Positions 18,334 through 40,057 of a stretch of 40,276 nucleotides of DNA are shown here, piece by piece. The stretch lies in assembly GCF_021531655.1 (NCBI RefSeq), contig NZ_JADYUF010000033.1, positions 1-40,276 on the forward strand, written 5' to 3'. Position numbers and translations under genes: made by a program. This stretch comes from Leyella stercorea. Lineage in GTDB: Bacteria > Bacteroidota > Bacteroidia > Bacteroidales > Bacteroidaceae. The notes beneath the pieces are model-generated. The model was not told where the DNA came from. It was given only the letters and a program-made list of their open reading frames with translations, and ran no database searches. Position 1 is the first letter of the stretch; every line of letters starts with the position of its first letter.

Positions 18334-19848
18334 ATGACGAACAATATAATGACTAAGAGCTTGTTGGGTCTGGCCATGGCGTTGGGGCTGTTTGCCAGCT
18401 GCTATGACGACAAGGGCAACTATGACTATATATCCGAAGACGATGCCGCTGGCGTAGTGTTGGGAGCTTTGGAGGGGACAACTGTGCGTGCCAATGAGGT
18501 GCTTAACATAGTGCCGCAGATGAAAGGTGGCGAGGGCGACGGATTCTCCTATCTGTGGTACACGCTGTCGAGCGGTACGTATAATGTAAGGAGGGACACG
18601 CTGTCGCAAGAGCGCGAGCTGAATGTTCCGGTAAATCTGAAGGCGGGAAAGTACACATTGTATTATCAAGTCACCAACAGGTCGAATGGAGTATTCCGTT
18701 CGGTTGAGGCTCCGTTGACCGTTACTGCCACCGACATCACTTCCGGATGGTATGTGATGAAGGAGATTGAGGGCGGCACCGACTTCGACTACTACTCGCT
18801 TGACGGAAATAAGGCGGTCAGTTCGTTTATCACCACCTCGCTCGGAATGGAGCCGTTAAAGGGCTCGCCCGTAGGAATGGCGTTTCTCGATGGTTCGTAC
18901 AATCATGAGGAAGAGGGTGCCGACGGCAAGACAACGAAGGAAACCGGTCTGTCGGCATTTCACATCCTGACCACACATGACTTCGTAACGTTGAACGGCA
19001 GCGACTTCTCGTTGCTGAAAAACCTGCATCAGGAGTTCTACGAAGCGCCTTCATCGTTCAATTTCAGCCATCTGTTCATCGATTCGTCTTTGCGCGCCCA
19101 AGGCTTAAATACTGACTATTGCTTCCTCATAAACAACGGCAAAGTCCATACGATGGGTTCCGAGATAGGCAAGTGGGGATATCAGGGAGCCGGCGATTAT
19201 GAGTTGTACCCGACGTTGGTGGGCTGCTTTGTATCTGAGTTTGCTTATGATATGAAGAACCAGATGATTGTGACATGCAGCACGGACGGCACCGTGGAGA
19301 ATGCGAACACGCTGTCTGGCGGCGCCTTTACTGACTTTAAGGACAAGGATATGAAGGTTTCTGCGCTTGTGCCGCATGTCGGAGGCTTCTCTGCCGAGTT
19401 CTATATTGTAGCCAAGAGCGGTGAGGACGGCAGGTACTACGTGGCTGATGTCACTACCTTCCCACCTTATATTTGTGAAGCAACGTATTACGAATACGCC
19501 TCCGACAGTCCGCTCAACCAGGCAAAGATTCTCGCTTCGCCCCAGACAGCTTCTGTCATTTACTTTGCTATAGACAACAAGCTGTATATGCACAAGGTGA
19601 CGACGGGCGAGGACAGCGTTGTGAAGACATTCGCGCAGGGCGAGACCATCTCGTTCATACAGAACATAACGGGCACGGACAAGGCTGGCGAAAGCTTCAA
19701 CGATATAGTTGTCATCACCAACACCTCTGCCGGATACAATGTCTATCAGATGCCTATGGTTGGCTCGGCAGGCGAATTGCAGACCGATGTAGCGCCAGCT
19801 TATCAGGGTGAAGGCAAGGCTTCTTACCTGATGTTCCGACAGGAATAA
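18334..19848 (+). CDS. PKD-like family surface lipoprotein
   Basis: A 504-aa lipoprotein (lipobox LFASC, C23) with an acidic mature N-terminus (CYDDKGNYDY). The N-terminal part (about 25-130) fits the Bacteroidetes PKD-like family: LNIVPQMKGGEGDGFSYLWY, GKYTLYYQVTNRSNGVFRS and PLTVTATDITSGWYVMKEIE. The remainder, from about 140, is rich in beta-strand and aromatic residues, consistent with a repeat-built binding domain, but I cannot assign it. ATG 18349 is a possible alternative start. It is the last gene of the locus and is followed by a terminator. A substrate-capture role is inferred from context only. Confidence 0.8.
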   Translation: MTNNIMTKSLLGLAMALGLFASCYDDKGNYDYISEDDAAGVVLGALEGTTVRANEVLNIVPQMKGGEGDGFSYLWYTLSSGTYNVRRDTLSQERELNVPVNLKAGKYTLYYQVTNRSNGVFRSVEAPLTVTATDITSGWYVMKEIEGGTDFDYYSLDGNKAVSSFITTSLGMEPLKGSPVGMAFLDGSYNHEEEGADGKTTKETGLSAFHILTTHDFVTLNGSDFSLLKNLHQEFYEAPSSFNFSHLFIDSSLRAQGLNTDYCFLINNGKVHTMGSEIGKWGYQGAGDYELYPTLVGCFVSEFAYDMKNQMIVTCSTDGTVENANTLSGGAFTDFKDKDMKVSALVPHVGGFSAEFYIVAKSGEDGRYYVADVTTFPPYICEATYYEYASDSPLNQAKILASPQTASVIYFAIDNKLYMHKVTTGEDSVVKTFAQGETISFIQNITGTDKAGESFNDIVVITNTSAGYNVYQMPMVGSAGELQTDVAPAYQGEGKASYLMFRQE

Positions 19849-19929: not shown

Positions 19930-19941
19930 GTGTTGCTGAAA

Positions 19942-20051
19942 AAATGTAGTCCTTTTGCACTCCAAAAGGACTCGTTTTGCCATGTAAAAGGACTCCTTTT
20001 GCAAGCTAAAAGGACTACATTTGAGGTCCAAAAGGACTCCTTTTGAAAATC
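19942..20051. repeat. Phased 22-bp near-palindromic repeat array (array 1)
   Basis: AAAAGGACT begins at 19964, 19986, 20008 and 20030, an exact 22-bp period. Each unit centres on the 17-bp palindrome CAAAAGGA-C-TCCTTTTG or a close variant, followed by about 5 variable bases. An inverted piece at 19942-19956 is the reverse complement of 20008-20022. The array fills the gap between the locus terminator and the 3' end of birA. A related array lies at 31036-31167. Confidence 0.9.
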
Positions 20052-20061
20052 ACCATGATTT

Positions 20062-20802
20062 TCAGTCCAAAACAAACCTTACTTCCTTGAGCGTATATTC
20101 GCGTCTGGTGCCGTCAGAAAGAGCCAGATGCAGGCGTCCGTCAACCGAAACGTGGTCGATGCGGGCACTGAACTGTTCGCCCGTTGAGGTGTCTTCGTAG
20201 AGGTGTAGTCCCTCGCGGCGATACAATGCGGCATGGTATTGGCTGACGATGTGGTCGGAGTGTCCGCTTACGGCAAGCGAGTAGTAGTGGTCGAAGTGCT
20301 GCACTATCTCGTCGAGCAGCTGTTCTGTAGGAGTCTCTACACCTATTATATTATATAGCGACACTGGATTGGGCGCGTCGCTGTGAAACTCCCGTTGGTT
20401 GACGTTGATTCCGGTGCCGTATATGCAGCGTGCCAGAGTGCGCCCCTTCACCGATGTCTCGATGAGCGTGCCGCTGATTTTGCGGTCGTGCCAGTAGATG
20501 TCGTTGGGCCATTTCAGACTGATGCCGTCGGTGTAATTGTCGAGGGCAGCCTTGACAGCGAGCGCTCCAGCCATCGACAGAACGAACTGTCGGGTAATGT
20601 CGATGCTTGTCGGGCATACCAGAATGGAGAACAGCAGGTTCTTTCCAGCCTCGCTCTCCCATTTGTTGCTGCCCTGTCCGCGTCCGGCAGTCTGCCAGTC
20701 GGCGTAGACTACGGTCATACTGTCGTCCTGAGGCGACGGAAGTGCGCGCAGATAGTCGTTGGTTGAGGCTGTCTGATGTAGATGAATTATTTTGTGTTGC
20801 AT
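20062..20802 (-). CDS. birA: Biotin--[acetyl-CoA-carboxylase] ligase
   Basis: A 246-aa cytosolic enzyme that activates biotin with ATP and transfers it to the lysine of biotin carboxyl carrier proteins. Diagnostic motifs are TASTNDYLR, the biotinyl-AMP loop TAGRGQGSNKWES (GRGQG 40-44), SLKWPNDIYW (97-101) and RKISGTLIE, followed by the small C-terminal SH3-like domain. There is no N-terminal helix-turn-helix, so it is the monofunctional ligase rather than the repressor type. It diverges from tadA, with about 62 nt between the starts. Confidence 0.95.
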   Translation of the reverse strand: MQHKIIHLHQTASTNDYLRALPSPQDDSMTVVYADWQTAGRGQGSNKWESEAGKNLLFSILVCPTSIDITRQFVLSMAGALAVKAALDNYTDGISLKWPNDIYWHDRKISGTLIETSVKGRTLARCIYGTGINVNQREFHSDAPNPVSLYNIIGVETPTEQLLDEIVQHFDHYYSLAVSGHSDHIVSQYHAALYRREGLHLYEDTSTGEQFSARIDHVSVDGRLHLALSDGTRREYTLKEVRFVLD

Positions 20803-20864: not shown

Positions 20865-21320
20865 ATGGACGAAAAACAGAAGCAACAGGCTGCCGACGAG
20901 CAGTTCATGCGCCGTGCCCTCGACGAGGCTATGGCGGCTCGCGATGCCGGCGAGATACCCGTTGGAGCGGTAGTGGTGGCTGATGGCCGCATCATAGCGC
21001 GTGCCCACAACCTCACCGAGACCCTTGGCGACGTCACGGCGCATGCCGAGATGCAGGCGATAACGTCGGCTGCCAACCAGTTGGGAGGCAAATACCTCAC
21101 CGACTGCACCCTATACGTCACCCTCGAACCCTGCATCATGTGCGCAGGAGCGATAGGGTGGTCGCAGATAAGGCGTGTGGTTTATGGCGCAACCGACGAC
21201 AAGCGAGGCTACTCGCAGTTCGCTCCCAAGGCTTTTCACCCCAAATGCACCGTCACTACGGGCGTTCTGGAAGACGAATGCAGAGAGTTGATGACGCAGT
21301 TCTTCAAGAGCAGAAGATAA
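20865..21320 (+). CDS. tadA: tRNA adenosine(34) deaminase
   Basis: A 151-aa zinc deaminase that converts A34 of tRNA-Arg(ACG) to inosine so that one tRNA reads several CGN codons. The catalytic block is TAHAEMQAI (zinc His H60, proton-shuttle E62), and the remaining zinc ligands are in EPCIMCAGAI (C90, C93). GEIPVGAVVV and ARAHNLTE are typical N-terminal motifs. Length fits TadA (about 150-170 aa). Guanine deaminase is the main alternative, but the sequence around HAE and PCIMC is TadA-like. Confidence 0.93.
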   Translation: MDEKQKQQAADEQFMRRALDEAMAARDAGEIPVGAVVVADGRIIARAHNLTETLGDVTAHAEMQAITSAANQLGGKYLTDCTLYVTLEPCIMCAGAIGWSQIRRVVYGATDDKRGYSQFAPKAFHPKCTVTTGVLEDECRELMTQFFKSRR

Positions 21321-21324
21321 TAAT

Positions 21325-21592
21325 AGGAGGCTATGGAGTCCTCGCCATAGCCTGAGTAAGCAACAATGCATATTATTGTTGTCAACAACGTTTATTATTA
21401 TTGTTGTTGTAAAATGCCGGCTAATTGCTCAGGAGGGCGTGTCAAAAGTCACAGCAGTACGCCCCGAAGGGGCAGAAGCTCATAGCCCAGGGCAACACCC
21501 TGGGTAAAAGTACACCCAAGGCGCTGCCTTGGGCTATGTGCTTTTGGGGCTTTCAGCCCGTTTTGTTTGACTTTTGACACACCCTCCTCCTA
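21325..21592. repeat. Hairpin element TAGGAGG...CCTCCTA carrying an internal MITE-like repeat
   Basis: The left hairpin (GAGGCTATGG...CCATAGCCTGAG, from 21325) and both termini (TAGGAGG, CCTCCTA) match the element at 31336-31450. The right hairpin that should follow TTGCTCAGG is missing; in its place is the 158-bp repeat listed separately. The left hairpin may also terminate tadA. Nothing coding was seen. Confidence 0.75.
21431..21588. mobile_element. MITE-like cloverleaf repeat with inverted termini
   Basis: The terminal inverted repeats are GGAGGG(C)GTGTCAAAAGTC on the left and its complement GACTTTTGACACACCCTCC on the right. Inside are perfect hairpins at 21461-21473 (GCCCCGAAGGGGC), 21486-21504 (CCCAGGG/CCCTGGG) and 21515-21533 (CCCAAGGC/GCCTTGGG). 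A longer-range stem joins CATAGCCCA (21481-21489) to TGGGCTATG (near 21530). There is no ORF. The structure resembles a non-autonomous transposon or REP-like element that folds as a cloverleaf. Confidence 0.8.
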
Positions 21593-29481: not shown

Positions 29482-30957
29482 ATGCCAACAACCGACAAAC
29501 CGCAGAACTTCTGGTCGCAGGTAGACTGGATAACAATAGCCCTGTACATCGGACTTATGGCGTTCGGATGGATTAGCATTTGCGGAGCCAGCTATACATT
29601 CGGCGAGAACGACATCTTCGCCCTGAGCACCCGTTCGGGCATGCAGGTGATATGGATAGGCACGAGTATATGTCTGGGATTTGTCATTCTGATGATGGAC
29701 ACGCGCTTCTTCGACACCTTCTCGTATGTCATATACGGAGGATTGCTGTTGCTGCTATTTGCCACGATATTCAATCCGCACGACATCAAGGGTTCGCACT
29801 CGTGGCTCGTCATTGGTCCGCTCCGACTGCAGCCTGCCGAATTCGGCAAGTTCGCAACGGCACTGGCGCTTGCCAAACTGATGAGTACGTACGGCTTCAA
29901 CATAGGGCGATGGAAGGATTTCGCCGCCGCCTGCGCCGTCATCTTCATCCCTATGCTCTGCATCGTAGGCCAGCGCGAGACGGGTTCGGCGCTGGTCTAC
30001 CTCACATTCTTCCTTGTTCTCTACCGCGAGGGCATGCCCGGCAGCATACTCTTTACGGGAGTTGCCATGGTGGTATACTTCGTTGTAGGCATAAAGTACG
30101 AGAACGAGCTGATGTTCGACACGCCCACATCGGTGGGCAGATTTGTCGTGCTCATGCTCGTGCAGATATTCACGGCGTGCCTGGTCGACGTATATACCCA
30201 GCAGCGCAGGCAGACCCGCCTGATATTGGGCTACAGTCTGGGTCTTACGATTGTGGCAATGCTCTTCTCGGTGTACGTCATACGCTTCGACGTGACGCTG
30301 GTCCAGATAGCCGTATGCGTTGCCATAGCGGTGTATCTGCTGCTCAACGGACTGCGCACACGACTGCCCCAGTACTTCCTGATATTGAGTTTTGCCGTAG
30401 GATCGGTAGTTTTCTTCTACTCAGCCGACTACGTATTGAACAATGTGATGGAGCCTCACCAGCGCGTGCGTATCAATGTGCTGCTCGGACTGGACGAAGA
30501 CCTGGATGGAGCCGGCTACAATGTGCACCAGAGTGAGATAGCCATCGGTTCGGGCGGACTCAAAGGCAAGGGCTTCCTCAACGGAACACAGACCAAGCTG
30601 AAGTTTGTGCCCGAGCAAGACACCGACTTCATCTTCTGCACCGTGGGCGAAGAAGAGGGCTTTGTAGGCTCGGCAGGCGTACTGCTGATGTTCCTGGCAC
30701 TGATATTGCGACTGATGAAGCTTGCCGAACGGCAACCGTTCACCTTCGGCAGGATATACGGCTATAGTGTAGCCTCGGTGTTCCTTTTCCATGTGTTCAT
30801 CAATGTTGGAATGGTGCTGGGCCTCACCCCCGTTATAGGCATTCCGCTACCGTTCTTCAGTTATGGCGGATCGTCGCTATGGGGATTCACCATTCTGCTC
30901 TTCATCTTCCTGCGTATTGATGCCGGAAGAAATTTTGCACAGGGCAGAATTGGCTGA
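29482..30957 (+). CDS. rodA: SEDS glycosyltransferase RodA
   Basis: A 491-aa polytopic inner-membrane enzyme that polymerises lipid II into glycan strands with PBP2. Recognisable SEDS blocks are GSHSWLVIGPLRLQPAEFGKFATALALAK, the extracellular loop DEDLDGAGYNVHQSEIAIGSGGLKGKGFLNGTQTKLKFVPEQDTDFIF in outline, EEEGFVGS and the C-terminal GLTPVIGIPLPFFSYGGSSLWGF. It is longer than proteobacterial RodA (about 370 aa); the extra length lies mainly in the central helices and loops (about 170-330). It is the last gene of the elongasome cluster and is followed by a long repeat-filled gap. Confidence 0.95.
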   Translation: MPTTDKPQNFWSQVDWITIALYIGLMAFGWISICGASYTFGENDIFALSTRSGMQVIWIGTSICLGFVILMMDTRFFDTFSYVIYGGLLLLLFATIFNPHDIKGSHSWLVIGPLRLQPAEFGKFATALALAKLMSTYGFNIGRWKDFAAACAVIFIPMLCIVGQRETGSALVYLTFFLVLYREGMPGSILFTGVAMVVYFVVGIKYENELMFDTPTSVGRFVVLMLVQIFTACLVDVYTQQRRQTRLILGYSLGLTIVAMLFSVYVIRFDVTLVQIAVCVAIAVYLLLNGLRTRLPQYFLILSFAVGSVVFFYSADYVLNNVMEPHQRVRINVLLGLDEDLDGAGYNVHQSEIAIGSGGLKGKGFLNGTQTKLKFVPEQDTDFIFCTVGEEEGFVGSAGVLLMFLALILRLMKLAERQPFTFGRIYGYSVASVFLFHVFINVGMVLGLTPVIGIPLPFFSYGGSSLWGFTILLFIFLRIDAGRNFAQGRIG

Positions 30958-31035: not shown

Positions 31036-31167
31036 TGAAGGGCAACTTCTGCTGAGCAAAAGGACAACTTTAGCTCTCCAAAAGGACTCGTTTTGCTCTC
31101 CAAAAGGATTCGTTTTGCTGTCCAAAAGGACTCGTTTTGAAAGGCAAAAGGACTCCTTTTGAAAATC
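31036..31167. repeat. Phased 22-bp near-palindromic repeat array (array 2)
   Basis: AAAAGGAC/T words begin at 31058, 31080, 31102, 31124 and 31146, again an exact 22-bp period. A degenerate unit is still in phase at 31036, and perhaps another at 31014. The core is CAAAAGGACTC[C/G]TTTTG. Units decay towards the upstream edge, where CAACTT replaces CTCGTTTT. Confidence 0.9.
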
Positions 31168-31261
31168 CGACGGAAATTAAGTGAAAAGTGAAAAGGGAAA
31201 AGTGAAAAATCCAATGGAATTTAAGTGAAAAGTGAAAAGGGAAAAGTGAAAAATCCGACGG
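31167..31261. repeat. 44-bp tandem repeat, about 2.2 copies
   Basis: Copies of CC[GA/AA][C/T]GGAA.TTAAGTG followed by AAAAGTGAAAAGGG-type purines begin at 31167, 31211 and (partial) 31255. The 44-bp period is twice that of the adjoining array and starts within a base of its phase. Confidence 0.8.
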
Positions 31262-31335
31262 GGTTGCTTTGTTCGGCAATTCGGGTGGCAATGATGTAAG
31301 TTCAGGTGTTGTGAGTGGATTGGCTAAGCAAATTG

Positions 31336-31450
31336 TAGGAGGCTATGGCGTCCCCGCCGTAGCCTGAGCTGTCAGACAGTACATTCTTATTGTTAGTTTT
31401 TTTTATACCACTGCTTGCTCAGGTTATGGCGAGGACGCCATAACCTCCTA
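31336..31450. repeat. Two-hairpin palindromic element
   Basis: The termini TAGGAGG and CCTCCTA are inverted. The left hairpin is GGCTATGGCG-TCCC-CGCCGTAGCC and the right is GGTTATGGCG-AGGA-CGCCATAACC; the halves also complement each other (GCCTGAG / CTCAGG). A related element with a different right half is at 21325-21592. Confidence 0.85.
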
Positions 31451-31583
31451 CAGTTAGGTCTTCGTTAAAACAGTCGTATCACTCCACGTTTCGGATGAGT
31501 CTTGATTATAAGTGTTTGTGACCCGATATTCGGGGAACAGTCTGATATTAAGTTTGTTTTTGAAGGCGGCAACAGCAAAAAAT

Positions 31584-31659: not shown

Positions 31660-32844
31660 ATGGCAGAATCGAATTTCGTAGACTATGTTAAGATATACTG
31701 CCGCTCGGGCAAGGGCGGCCGTGGCTCAATGCACCTGCGCCATGTGAAGTACAATCCCAACGGAGGGCCTGACGGAGGCGACGGCGGACACGGCGGCAGT
31801 ATCTATCTGCGTGGCAACCACAACTACTGGACGCTGCTTCACCTGAAGTTTCAGCGCCACGTCTTCGCTGAACACGGCGGCAACGGCGGACGCGACAAGT
31901 GTCACGGCAAGGACGGCAAGGACATCTACATCGACGTGCCTTGCGGAACTGTGGTGTACAATGCCGAAACCGGCAAGTACGTGTGCGACGTTATGCACGA
32001 CGGACAGGAAGTGCTGCTGCTCAAGGGCGGCCGTGGCGGACTGGGCAACTTCCAGTTCCGTTCGGCTACCAACCAGACTCCGCGCTATGCACAGCCCGGT
32101 GAGCCGATGGAGGAGATGACCATCATTCTCGAGCTCAAGCTCCTTGCCGACGTCGGACTCGTAGGTCTGCCCAACGCAGGCAAGTCAACACTGCTCTCTG
32201 CCGTGTCGAGCGCACGCCCAAAGATAGCCAACTATCCGTTTACAACGCTCGAACCCTCGCTCGGCATCGTCGACTATCGTGACCACAAGTCGTTCGTAAT
32301 GGCTGACATACCCGGTATTATAGAGGGCGCGAGCGAGGGCAAGGGTCTCGGACTTCGATTCCTCCGACACATCGAGCGCAACTCGCTGCTGCTCTTCATG
32401 GTGCCCGGCGACACCGACGACATAAAGCGCGAGTATGAACTTCTGCTCAACGAGCTGCGCCAGTTCAATCCCGACATGCTCAGCAAGCACCGTGTGCTGG
32501 CCGTGACCAAGTGCGACCTGCTCGACGACGAACTCATGGACATGCTGCGCGATACGCTGCCCGACGACCTGCCCGTGGTGTTCATTTCGTCGGTTACGGG
32601 TCTGGGCATACAGCAGCTCAAGGACACCTTGTGGAACGAACTCAACTCGGAGAGCAACAAGCTGCAGAGTATCACAGCCGAAGACACTCTCGTACACCGC
32701 GACAAGGACATGACACGCTTCGCTGCCGAGATGCAGGCAGAGGGCGAGGACGATATTATCTACATCGACGACGAGGATATCGAGGACGTAGACGACCTCG
32801 ACGACTTTGAATATGAAGAGGAGGACTATGATGACGCAAAGTAG
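31660..32844 (+). CDS. obgE: Obg-family GTPase
   Basis: A 394-aa GTPase that binds the 50S ribosomal subunit and links assembly to growth state. The glycine-rich Obg fold covers about 1-158 ([39 protein letters not shown] in outline). The G domain follows with P-loop [14 protein letters not shown], switch [37 protein letters not shown] and TKCD. The C-terminal tail (about 360-394) is strongly acidic and tyrosine-containing, variable in this family. It is the first gene of an operon with pgeF and an M23 peptidase. Confidence 0.97.
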
Positions 32845-39825: not shown

Positions 39826-39908
39826 GCTATTGTTTAAAGTTACACATTTGCAGCTTCGATGCCGCATGGTTAGGTCTTAGTGTAATGGTTGATGCTTTAA
39901 TATTGTTA

Positions 39909-39924
39909 TACCTTTGCAAAGATA
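39909..39924. promoter_or_regulatory. Palindromic double -7 element upstream of the START-like gene
   Basis: TACCTTTGCAAAGATA contains TAtcTTTGC on the minus strand (39916-39924, towards the START-like gene) and TAccTTTGC on the plus strand (39909-39917, towards the tRNA). The tRNA also has its own element at 40031. Confidence 0.65.
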
Positions 39925-40030
39925 GTGCAAATTTCATACATATCGGTATGAAAATGTATACTTTTTCATGTTTTTCGACAAAAAAGATAAAAAAAGAGCC
40001 GAAAAATTTTGGATATAAACAAAAATGTAT

Positions 40031-40039
40031 TACCTTTGC
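40031..40039 (+). promoter_or_regulatory. Promoter -7 element of the tRNA gene
   Basis: TACCTTTGC, a full consensus match, ends 18 nt before the tRNA 5' end. Confidence 0.75.
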
Positions 40040-40057
40040 ACCCGCAATCAAGACGAT

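Follow-up and report, generated by a model that had tools for sequence, protein, structure and literature searches.

Several classes of small repeated sequences in bacterial genomes are relevant to the locus described here. According to excerpts of its description, BrickBuilt, a MITE/minisatellite of Porphyromonas gingivalis for which P. gulae is the other reported host, is intergenic with 19 copies in one strain; each element has 1 to 22.8 spacerless tandem copies of a 23-nt repeat, enclosed by a leader and a tail, and has IS5-like inverted ends (PMC4596501). The same excerpts mention 22-nt tandem repeats for P. gingivalis W83 (PMC4596501). REP/BIME sequences are characterized, in the sections of PMC3733652 that concern them, as small intergenic palindromes with many copies and inverted neighbors. 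Phased A-tract curved DNA of bacterial genomes is presented in parts of PMC4132750 and PMC3940949 as a genome-wide periodic bias, and the intergenic TAACTGA repeats are, in a portion of PMC4679880, 7-nt direct repeats. Full-text literature searches, covering mostly papers outside subscription, returned no recognized description of the array class reported below.

The window, by which we mean the whole 40,276-nt stretch of Leyella stercorea DNA that was analyzed, carries two arrays of 17-bp palindromic units with a period of 22 bp. Array 1 (19941..20045, no strand assigned) has five units with 5-bp spacers, starting at 19941, 19963, 19985, 20007, and 20029, the first of which is degenerate, and array 2 (31057..31161, no strand assigned) has five units starting at 31057, 31079, 31101, 31123, and 31145. 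A preliminary description of array 1 was right about the exact 22-bp period but counted four units, missing the degenerate first one, and placed each of them (19964, 19986, 20008, and 20030) one base late, which left off the first base of the palindrome; array 2 was not among its observations. Tandem Repeats Finder independently calls period 22 at 19950-20045 and at 31057-31161. Searching both strands of the window with the unit consensus (up to 3 mismatches) gave 17 matches, all inside the two arrays, where 0.07 were expected, and none of 100 dinucleotide shuffles of the window reached this number. The 22-bp-period palindrome array at 19941-20045 is confirmed as real. CRISPR repeats are separated by spacers of about 20-70 bp; the array spacers of 5 bp are indeed too short, as had been remarked from the sequence, and CRISPR was rejected.

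Array 1 lies between a PKD_2-domain protein gene of a SusC/SusD locus (18334..19848, + strand) and a biotin ligase family gene (20062..20802, − strand) whose end is 17 bp from the array, and array 2 lies between an FtsW/RodA family gene (29482..30957, + strand) and the Obg GTPase gene (31660..32844, + strand). At gathering score Rfam gave no match to the window arrays, its sole hits in the window and in 14 loci of the relative An906 being tRNA and SRP RNA, and no near match to window positions 15000-36000 was found among the PLSDB plasmids. Other repeats are also seen in the window: an 88-bp tandem repeat of 2.8 copies at its edge (1-245), a 44-bp tandem repeat immediately beyond array 2 (31162-31261), and a second dispersed palindromic repeat (GGAGGCTATGGCGTCC type) at 21319-21368 and 31328-31450, which matches An906 at some 20 or more places, in some cases next to arrays.

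The orthologous blocks of Leyella (Prevotella) stercorea An906 (handle G001) show 87-97% identity with the window, which places the latter in L. stercorea or a close sister. A scan of the GTDB genomes with the pattern returned 9 stretches, of which 5 lie in An906 and 4 in unrelated bacteria; the latter four were rejected as arrays because on inspection they are single palindromes with chance neighbors. With up to 2 mismatches An906 has 64 forward pattern matches versus 2 for the reversed pattern, and the tandem pattern in the An906 dialect matched none of 99 other relatives and no viral contigs. Neither window array is found at its orthologous position in An906. The interval between the FtsW/RodA and Obg genes is ~670 bp in the window, array 2 included, and ~45-65 bp in An906; the right flank of array 1 is common to both genomes from 20069 onward, and its left neighbor in the SusC/SusD locus has no An906 match by DNA search. 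Array 1 resembles a four-unit array elsewhere in An906, some spacers included. Array 2 together with about a dozen flanking bases (31057..31174, no strand assigned) is 87% identical to a non-orthologous place on An906 contig C110 (from ~202200 on), where the same array copy also has beside it a module 82% identical to the companion module of the window, a long inverted repeat at 31250..31510 (no strand assigned). In this way ~370 bp, including array 2 and the ~260-bp palindromic module, are common to the window and the non-orthologous An906 place; parts of the companion module also match further places in An906, and the 44-bp repeat is missing from the An906 copy. The likeness of both window arrays to these copies in An906 shows descent.

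Two forms are present in An906, namely plain arrays and a 388-bp dispersed element whose array is more varied and follows almost the same lattice. Among 27 aligned copies of the element the ends are fixed and the array is central. Its copies are often just ~70% alike pairwise, with a nearly constant length (387-390 bp in 25 of 26 measured copies, 412 bp in the remaining one). A direct ATATTTG motif is common to both ends, and a search of An906 with the end motifs (up to 3 mismatches) found 40 right ends (control 1) and 29 left ends (control 0); neither end motif is present in the window. Rfam at gathering score gave no match to the element in the 14 An906 loci. At L063:10947-11333, for example, and at ~25 further An906 loci, the left end has a hairpin (CCGCTCAAAACT...AGTTTTGAGCGG) and the right end is conserved and promoter-like. 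In a DNA search with the 388-bp element, 6 of 149 genomes matched besides An906; four of these (G013, G040, G054, and G106) did so through an array whose core differs.

The common design, YAAAAG-N5-CTTTTR plus 5 bp at period 22, with mostly 3-5 units and mostly intergenic, was found in 11-15 of 399 sampled genomes of the family. With the period fixed at 22 and up to 3 mismatches, 21 of the 399 genomes matched: 11 with two or more forward hits and none in the control (G001, G005, G011, G154, G207, G257, G285, G404, G437, G452, and G504), 4 with control hits about equal to forward hits (G205, G241, G340, and G496), and 6 with one hit each, among which G537 also has one control hit; 6 further genomes have control hits without forward hits. 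A 395-genome sample of the phylum matched only in G001 and G154, the latter also in the family sample, with no control hit. When a three-unit pattern was allowed periods of 18-30 bp, 10 of the 399 family genomes matched; the arrays listed are exactly at 22 in G001, G011, G340, G437, and G496, single places are at 22 in G497 and G537, and single off-lattice places are found in G179, G336, and G396, and the reversed control gave matches in G205, G340, and G496. A two-unit pattern with gaps of 0-30 bp gave 302 hits in G011, G437, and G496, and among the hits listed all span 37 or 59 bp, corresponding to unit distances of 22 or 44; its reversed control had 0 hits in G011, 3 in G437, and 29 in G496, where the pattern itself had 21. 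G496 also harbors a second, unrelated family of 22-bp palindrome arrays (TTCATGAA type; L189 ~2032-2124 and L190 ~1955-2045), which look intergenic (ORFs are listed for L189 only). Because two reversed-type places in G496 belong to this family, at least part of the control hits are a second array family.

The central bases of the unit are genome-specific (e.g., GGACTCC, GGTCATC, GGCCGTC, GTGCCAC, and GCATTGC). The outer A and T positions of the unit (2-3 and 15-16) are conserved at 73-100% across five unit sets, and the core varies between sets; inside G011, two core positions are equally conserved (95-96%). The preliminary description had looked for 22-bp phasing despite spacer divergence, and this is borne out by an exact lattice that several species keep although their cores and spacers differ, a result that favors a DNA-level site. 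A variable period in related genomes, which it took as a sign of a simple mobile or slippage repeat, was not seen apart from the three off-lattice single hits.

Statistics on lattice, unit number, and placement were obtained from one 1.98-Mb contig (C3) of the relative G011, in which unit-like 17-mers were scored out of 12 and pairs were counted at up to 120 bp apart. Among pairs scoring at least 11/12, 196 of 199 are at multiples of 22 (0 pairs in a triplet-shuffled control), and at score 10 the figure is 377 of 464 (28 pairs in the control). The 97 arrays of C3 comprise 4 with two units, 15 with three, 38 with four, 37 with five, 2 with six, and 1 with eleven, so that 94 of 97 have no more than five; 13 of 15 G437 loci have four units and 15 of 20 G011 loci have five. 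Of the C3 arrays with at least three units, 92 of 93 are mostly outside ORFs on a contig that is 85.6% ORF-covered according to a simple caller, and in a smaller locus set an ORF of at least 150 aa is overlapped by 2 of 15 G437 arrays and by none in the other groups. Even spacing of C3 arrays along the chromosome was not seen (CV 1.11 vs. a null mean of 0.96, with 93% of nulls at or below the observed value).

A4 and T4 tracts are spaced 11 bp apart, both inside the unit and across the spacer, and an array of three to five units would therefore form a curved segment of ~60-105 bp with its sites nearly on one face. Curvature was predicted by two wedge models for arrays of at least 81 bp, a threshold that leaves out four shorter An906 arrays. 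Predicted curvature is above the dinucleotide-shuffle median in 79 of 79 arrays from six groups, the group mean z being 3.3-10.7 in both models. Of 3652 places scored in the window, the 12 with the highest curvature overlap arrays 1 and 2 by one model, and the most curved stretch by the other, a simple A-tract model, is a non-array one (~39898-40046). For an idealized array both models put the curvature peak at period 21, with period 22 ~30% lower. Two TTCATGAA-type loci of G496 are predicted by the first model to be little curved (0.042 and 0.053).

The explanation that we tentatively favor, at rather less than even confidence, is that the arrays are curved docking sites for several cooperating dimers, a kind of architectural DNA that has been copied around the genome. 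Each unit would be a near-symmetric site for a putative protein dimer, and a putative lineage-specific DNA-binding protein would load in a cooperative manner, with as many as 4-5 dimers on one array, and by loading would bend or insulate intergenic DNA. HU-type proteins would be natural candidates for this protein, the HU protein PG0121 of P. gingivalis being studied for structured DNA (PMC3969353). The central 7 bp would drift with each genome's own version of the protein, giving rise to the dialects, without change to the outer A/T bases or to the 22-bp lattice; the arrays would spread through copying, partly inside 370-390-bp non-coding repeats. The arrays are dispersed, and the period, the limit on unit number (seen on one contig in full and at loci of other genomes), the absence of a sense-strand folding bias (see below), the mostly intergenic placement, and the dialects suggest that the DNA acts double-stranded, as a fixed-size module that is read or bent. 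The binding protein, its cooperativity, and a physiological role of the arrays are inferred. An essential role is made less likely by the patchiness of the arrays, for which 378 of 399 family genomes gave no match. Inverted neighbors, a lean toward 3' ends, and dispersal keep two other explanations alive, REP-like hairpins and mobile passengers.

It is possible, although in our view doubtful, that the arrays are REP/BIME-like hairpin repeats, which would act in a folded, single-stranded state (DNA or RNA) and owe their spread to a hairpin-acting transposase. Like such repeats, they are palindromic, mostly intergenic, present in tens of copies, and patchy among genomes, with a dialect in each genome. 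Perfect inverted copies of the 7-bp core are found in G011 in 9.9% of 262 pairs of neighboring units versus 2.1% expected (z = 9.2) and in 6.4% of 187 pairs of next-but-one units (z = 3.9), with no excess beyond; this excess is not demanded by protein binding alone, whereas hairpins do demand inverted neighbors. Direct core identity within G011 arrays is near the between-array level (z = 2.1 for neighbors and ~0 beyond), and thus the units are not slippage copies and inverted neighbors are favored. In tandem gene pairs, the arrays are closer to the 3' end of the upstream gene in 32 of 43 cases from five groups, and on C3 in 22 of 31 plain arrays (P = 0.03) and 33 of 55 of all arrays (P = 0.18). 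The 388-bp elements of An906 fold better in their native form than after a swap of units (z = −5.5 and −3.6) or of spacers (z = −5.1 and −5.2); inherited structure also counts in these z values because the swaps were made without position matching. The same test gave z = −2.3 and −3.1 in G011, a mild folding loss for units; on the other side, it gave hardly any folding loss in G437 and plain An906 arrays, and the unit swap had the opposite effect in G496 (5 loci). These counts leave out L150, a near copy of L135, and, for the plain An906 arrays, also L076 and L101. Pairing matrices by unit position, from which arrays of other unit numbers were left out, show weak signals (best z = 2.8). REP-like repeats also sit poorly with the absence of a sense-strand folding bias (the sense strand lower in 30 of 54 tandem contexts, P = 0.34) and with divergent gene pairs that are not clearly avoided, the C3 contexts being near background (55 tandem, 23 convergent, and 15 divergent vs. 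322, 114, and 133). The exact 22-bp lattice and the limit of five units are foreign to REP, the five unit sets share no GTAG/CGTC tag at the end of the palindrome, and a rough scan of the 1.98-Mb contig for a RAYT transposase motif, run on ORFs of 100-450 aa without a positive control, found none.

A role in segregation or in the nucleoid was raised in the preliminary description. On C3, AT-rich units (AAAAATAAWTTATTTTT type) form 33 clusters that follow the 22-bp lattice (L212-L311), with scored arrays on both sides of 10 clusters, on one side of 18, and on neither side of 5. Some AT-core clusters occur in places ~11 kb apart, e.g., 704.5, 715.7, 819.4, and 830.1 kb. The origin of C3 was assigned to the best DnaA-box cluster (803.2-803.5 kb), near the GC-skew minimum at 795 kb; a parS-like site is present at 834.5 kb, and two scans of C3 for dnaA motifs returned no convincing match. 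Within 300 kb of oriC there are 24 of the 33 AT-core clusters, versus 9.3 expected from intergenic gaps (P = 1.6×10−7), and their median distance from oriC is 157 kb versus 513 kb, a value as low being reached in 0 of 20000 permutations. The distance windows are post hoc, since they were first centered on the GC-skew minimum and the DnaA-box oriC was placed afterwards, and the permutation of the median is the cleaner origin test, in one contig of one genome. The plain arrays are not gathered at oriC (13 of 54 on C3 within 300 kb vs. 15.3 expected), and the enrichment of all C3 arrays within 200 kb of the origin (33 of 93 vs. 19 expected) is because of the arrays beside AT-core clusters. The AT core was found in two of the 399 genomes, G011 (11 forward hits) and G027 (2). 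A segregation or nucleoid role thus finds no support in the plain arrays of this contig, and its AT-core clusters are strongly origin-proximal. That there is a Prevotella-type chromosome-organizing system, in which a putative protein would read docking arrays for three to five dimers on the 22-bp lattice, its specificity would drift with the sites, and the AT-core class would mark an origin macrodomain or centromere-like zone, is conceivable but rather unlikely.

We also consider it unlikely that the arrays are passengers of small, MITE-like non-coding elements that move or recombine, being a structural part or an end of such elements without host function. The arrays had been expected to move with a flanking element if they were simple mobile repeats, and this holds for some of them: array 2 is found within ~370 bp at a non-orthologous An906 place with its 260-bp module, 27 arrays are central in the fixed-ended 388-bp element, and array 1 matches an An906 array including some spacers. 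Shared flanks of 240-300 bp or more are also seen in some G011 and G496 arrays; other arrays have no such common flanks. At one intergenic site that is orthologous in G496, G340, and G205 (L170, L119, and L208), the left flank and the first units are nearly letter-identical, and the sequences part within the array at unit starts, the unit at which they do so differing, and run on into unlike right flanks. Such divergence inside the array suggests that arrays can also be end points of rearrangements, and both window arrays are likewise at or in differences from An906. Against passengers, the flanks of 47 plain G011 arrays (out of 54, those without four or five units being left out) show neither target duplication (direct repeat 5.60 vs. 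5.68 expected) nor inverted ends (5.49 vs. 5.71 expected). Moreover, the same lattice lies within different flanking elements in several species, so that what persists is the array and not one element.

Very improbably, the arrays are bidirectional transcription terminators or 3' mRNA hairpins: the gene-end lean in tandem contexts and T-rich edges on some arrays fit this, and gene contexts near background, divergent sites included, and the lack of a sense-strand folding bias do not. A slippage minisatellite, to which the tandem 22-bp repeats might seem to point, is next to negligible and was rejected on account of the unit number limited to ~5 and the near-null direct identity within arrays, units of the same array being barely more alike than those of different arrays (15.8 vs. 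15.2 of 22 in nine arrays from An906 and the window). Curved docking sites for protein dimers remain our tentative choice, and the interpretation given in the preliminary description is, overall, partly supported.

Spacing that is exact to the base pair across species around a changing center would be unusual for bacterial non-coding DNA. If a protein does read the arrays, a major gut lineage would have a novel nucleoid-type factor, for which hundreds of variant sites exist naturally. If they are not, they would be a new class of REP-like repeats, and the lattice and the unit limit would need another explanation.

BrickBuilt, REP/BIME, and phased A-tract DNA are known relatives in kind of the arrays, and in each of the first two a tested defining feature is not shared. 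As far as the excerpts on BrickBuilt go, the arrays are similar in being intergenic and from Bacteroidales, and the 388-bp element of An906 likewise has repeats between a leader and a tail; the arrays differ in their period of 22 with 5-bp spacers, in having no more than five units in 94 of 97 cases, and in occurring in several species. Unlike the IS5-like inverted ends of BrickBuilt, the ends of the 388-bp element are direct (ATATTTG), and there is no inverted flank excess at the 47 plain G011 arrays. The repeats of P. gingivalis W83 have the same length as the array period and come from the same bacterial order, a likeness drawn from their mention alone, without sequence. The TAACTGA repeats, as they appear in the portion cited above, differ from the arrays, which are palindromes on a 22-bp lattice. 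In comparison with the imperfect palindromes of 20-40 bp that characterize REP/BIME, the unit of 17 bp (39 bp for inverted pairs), the intergenic placement, and the many copies are alike, whereas the rigid 22-bp lattice and the small, limited unit number are not, nor is there a GTAG/CGTC end tag common to the dialects, GTAG being found inside some An906 cores. Finally, the arrays share with phased A-tract DNA, as outlined in the parts cited, A/T tracts at ~11 bp and would belong to it by model prediction, but they are discrete palindromic modules with a species dialect.
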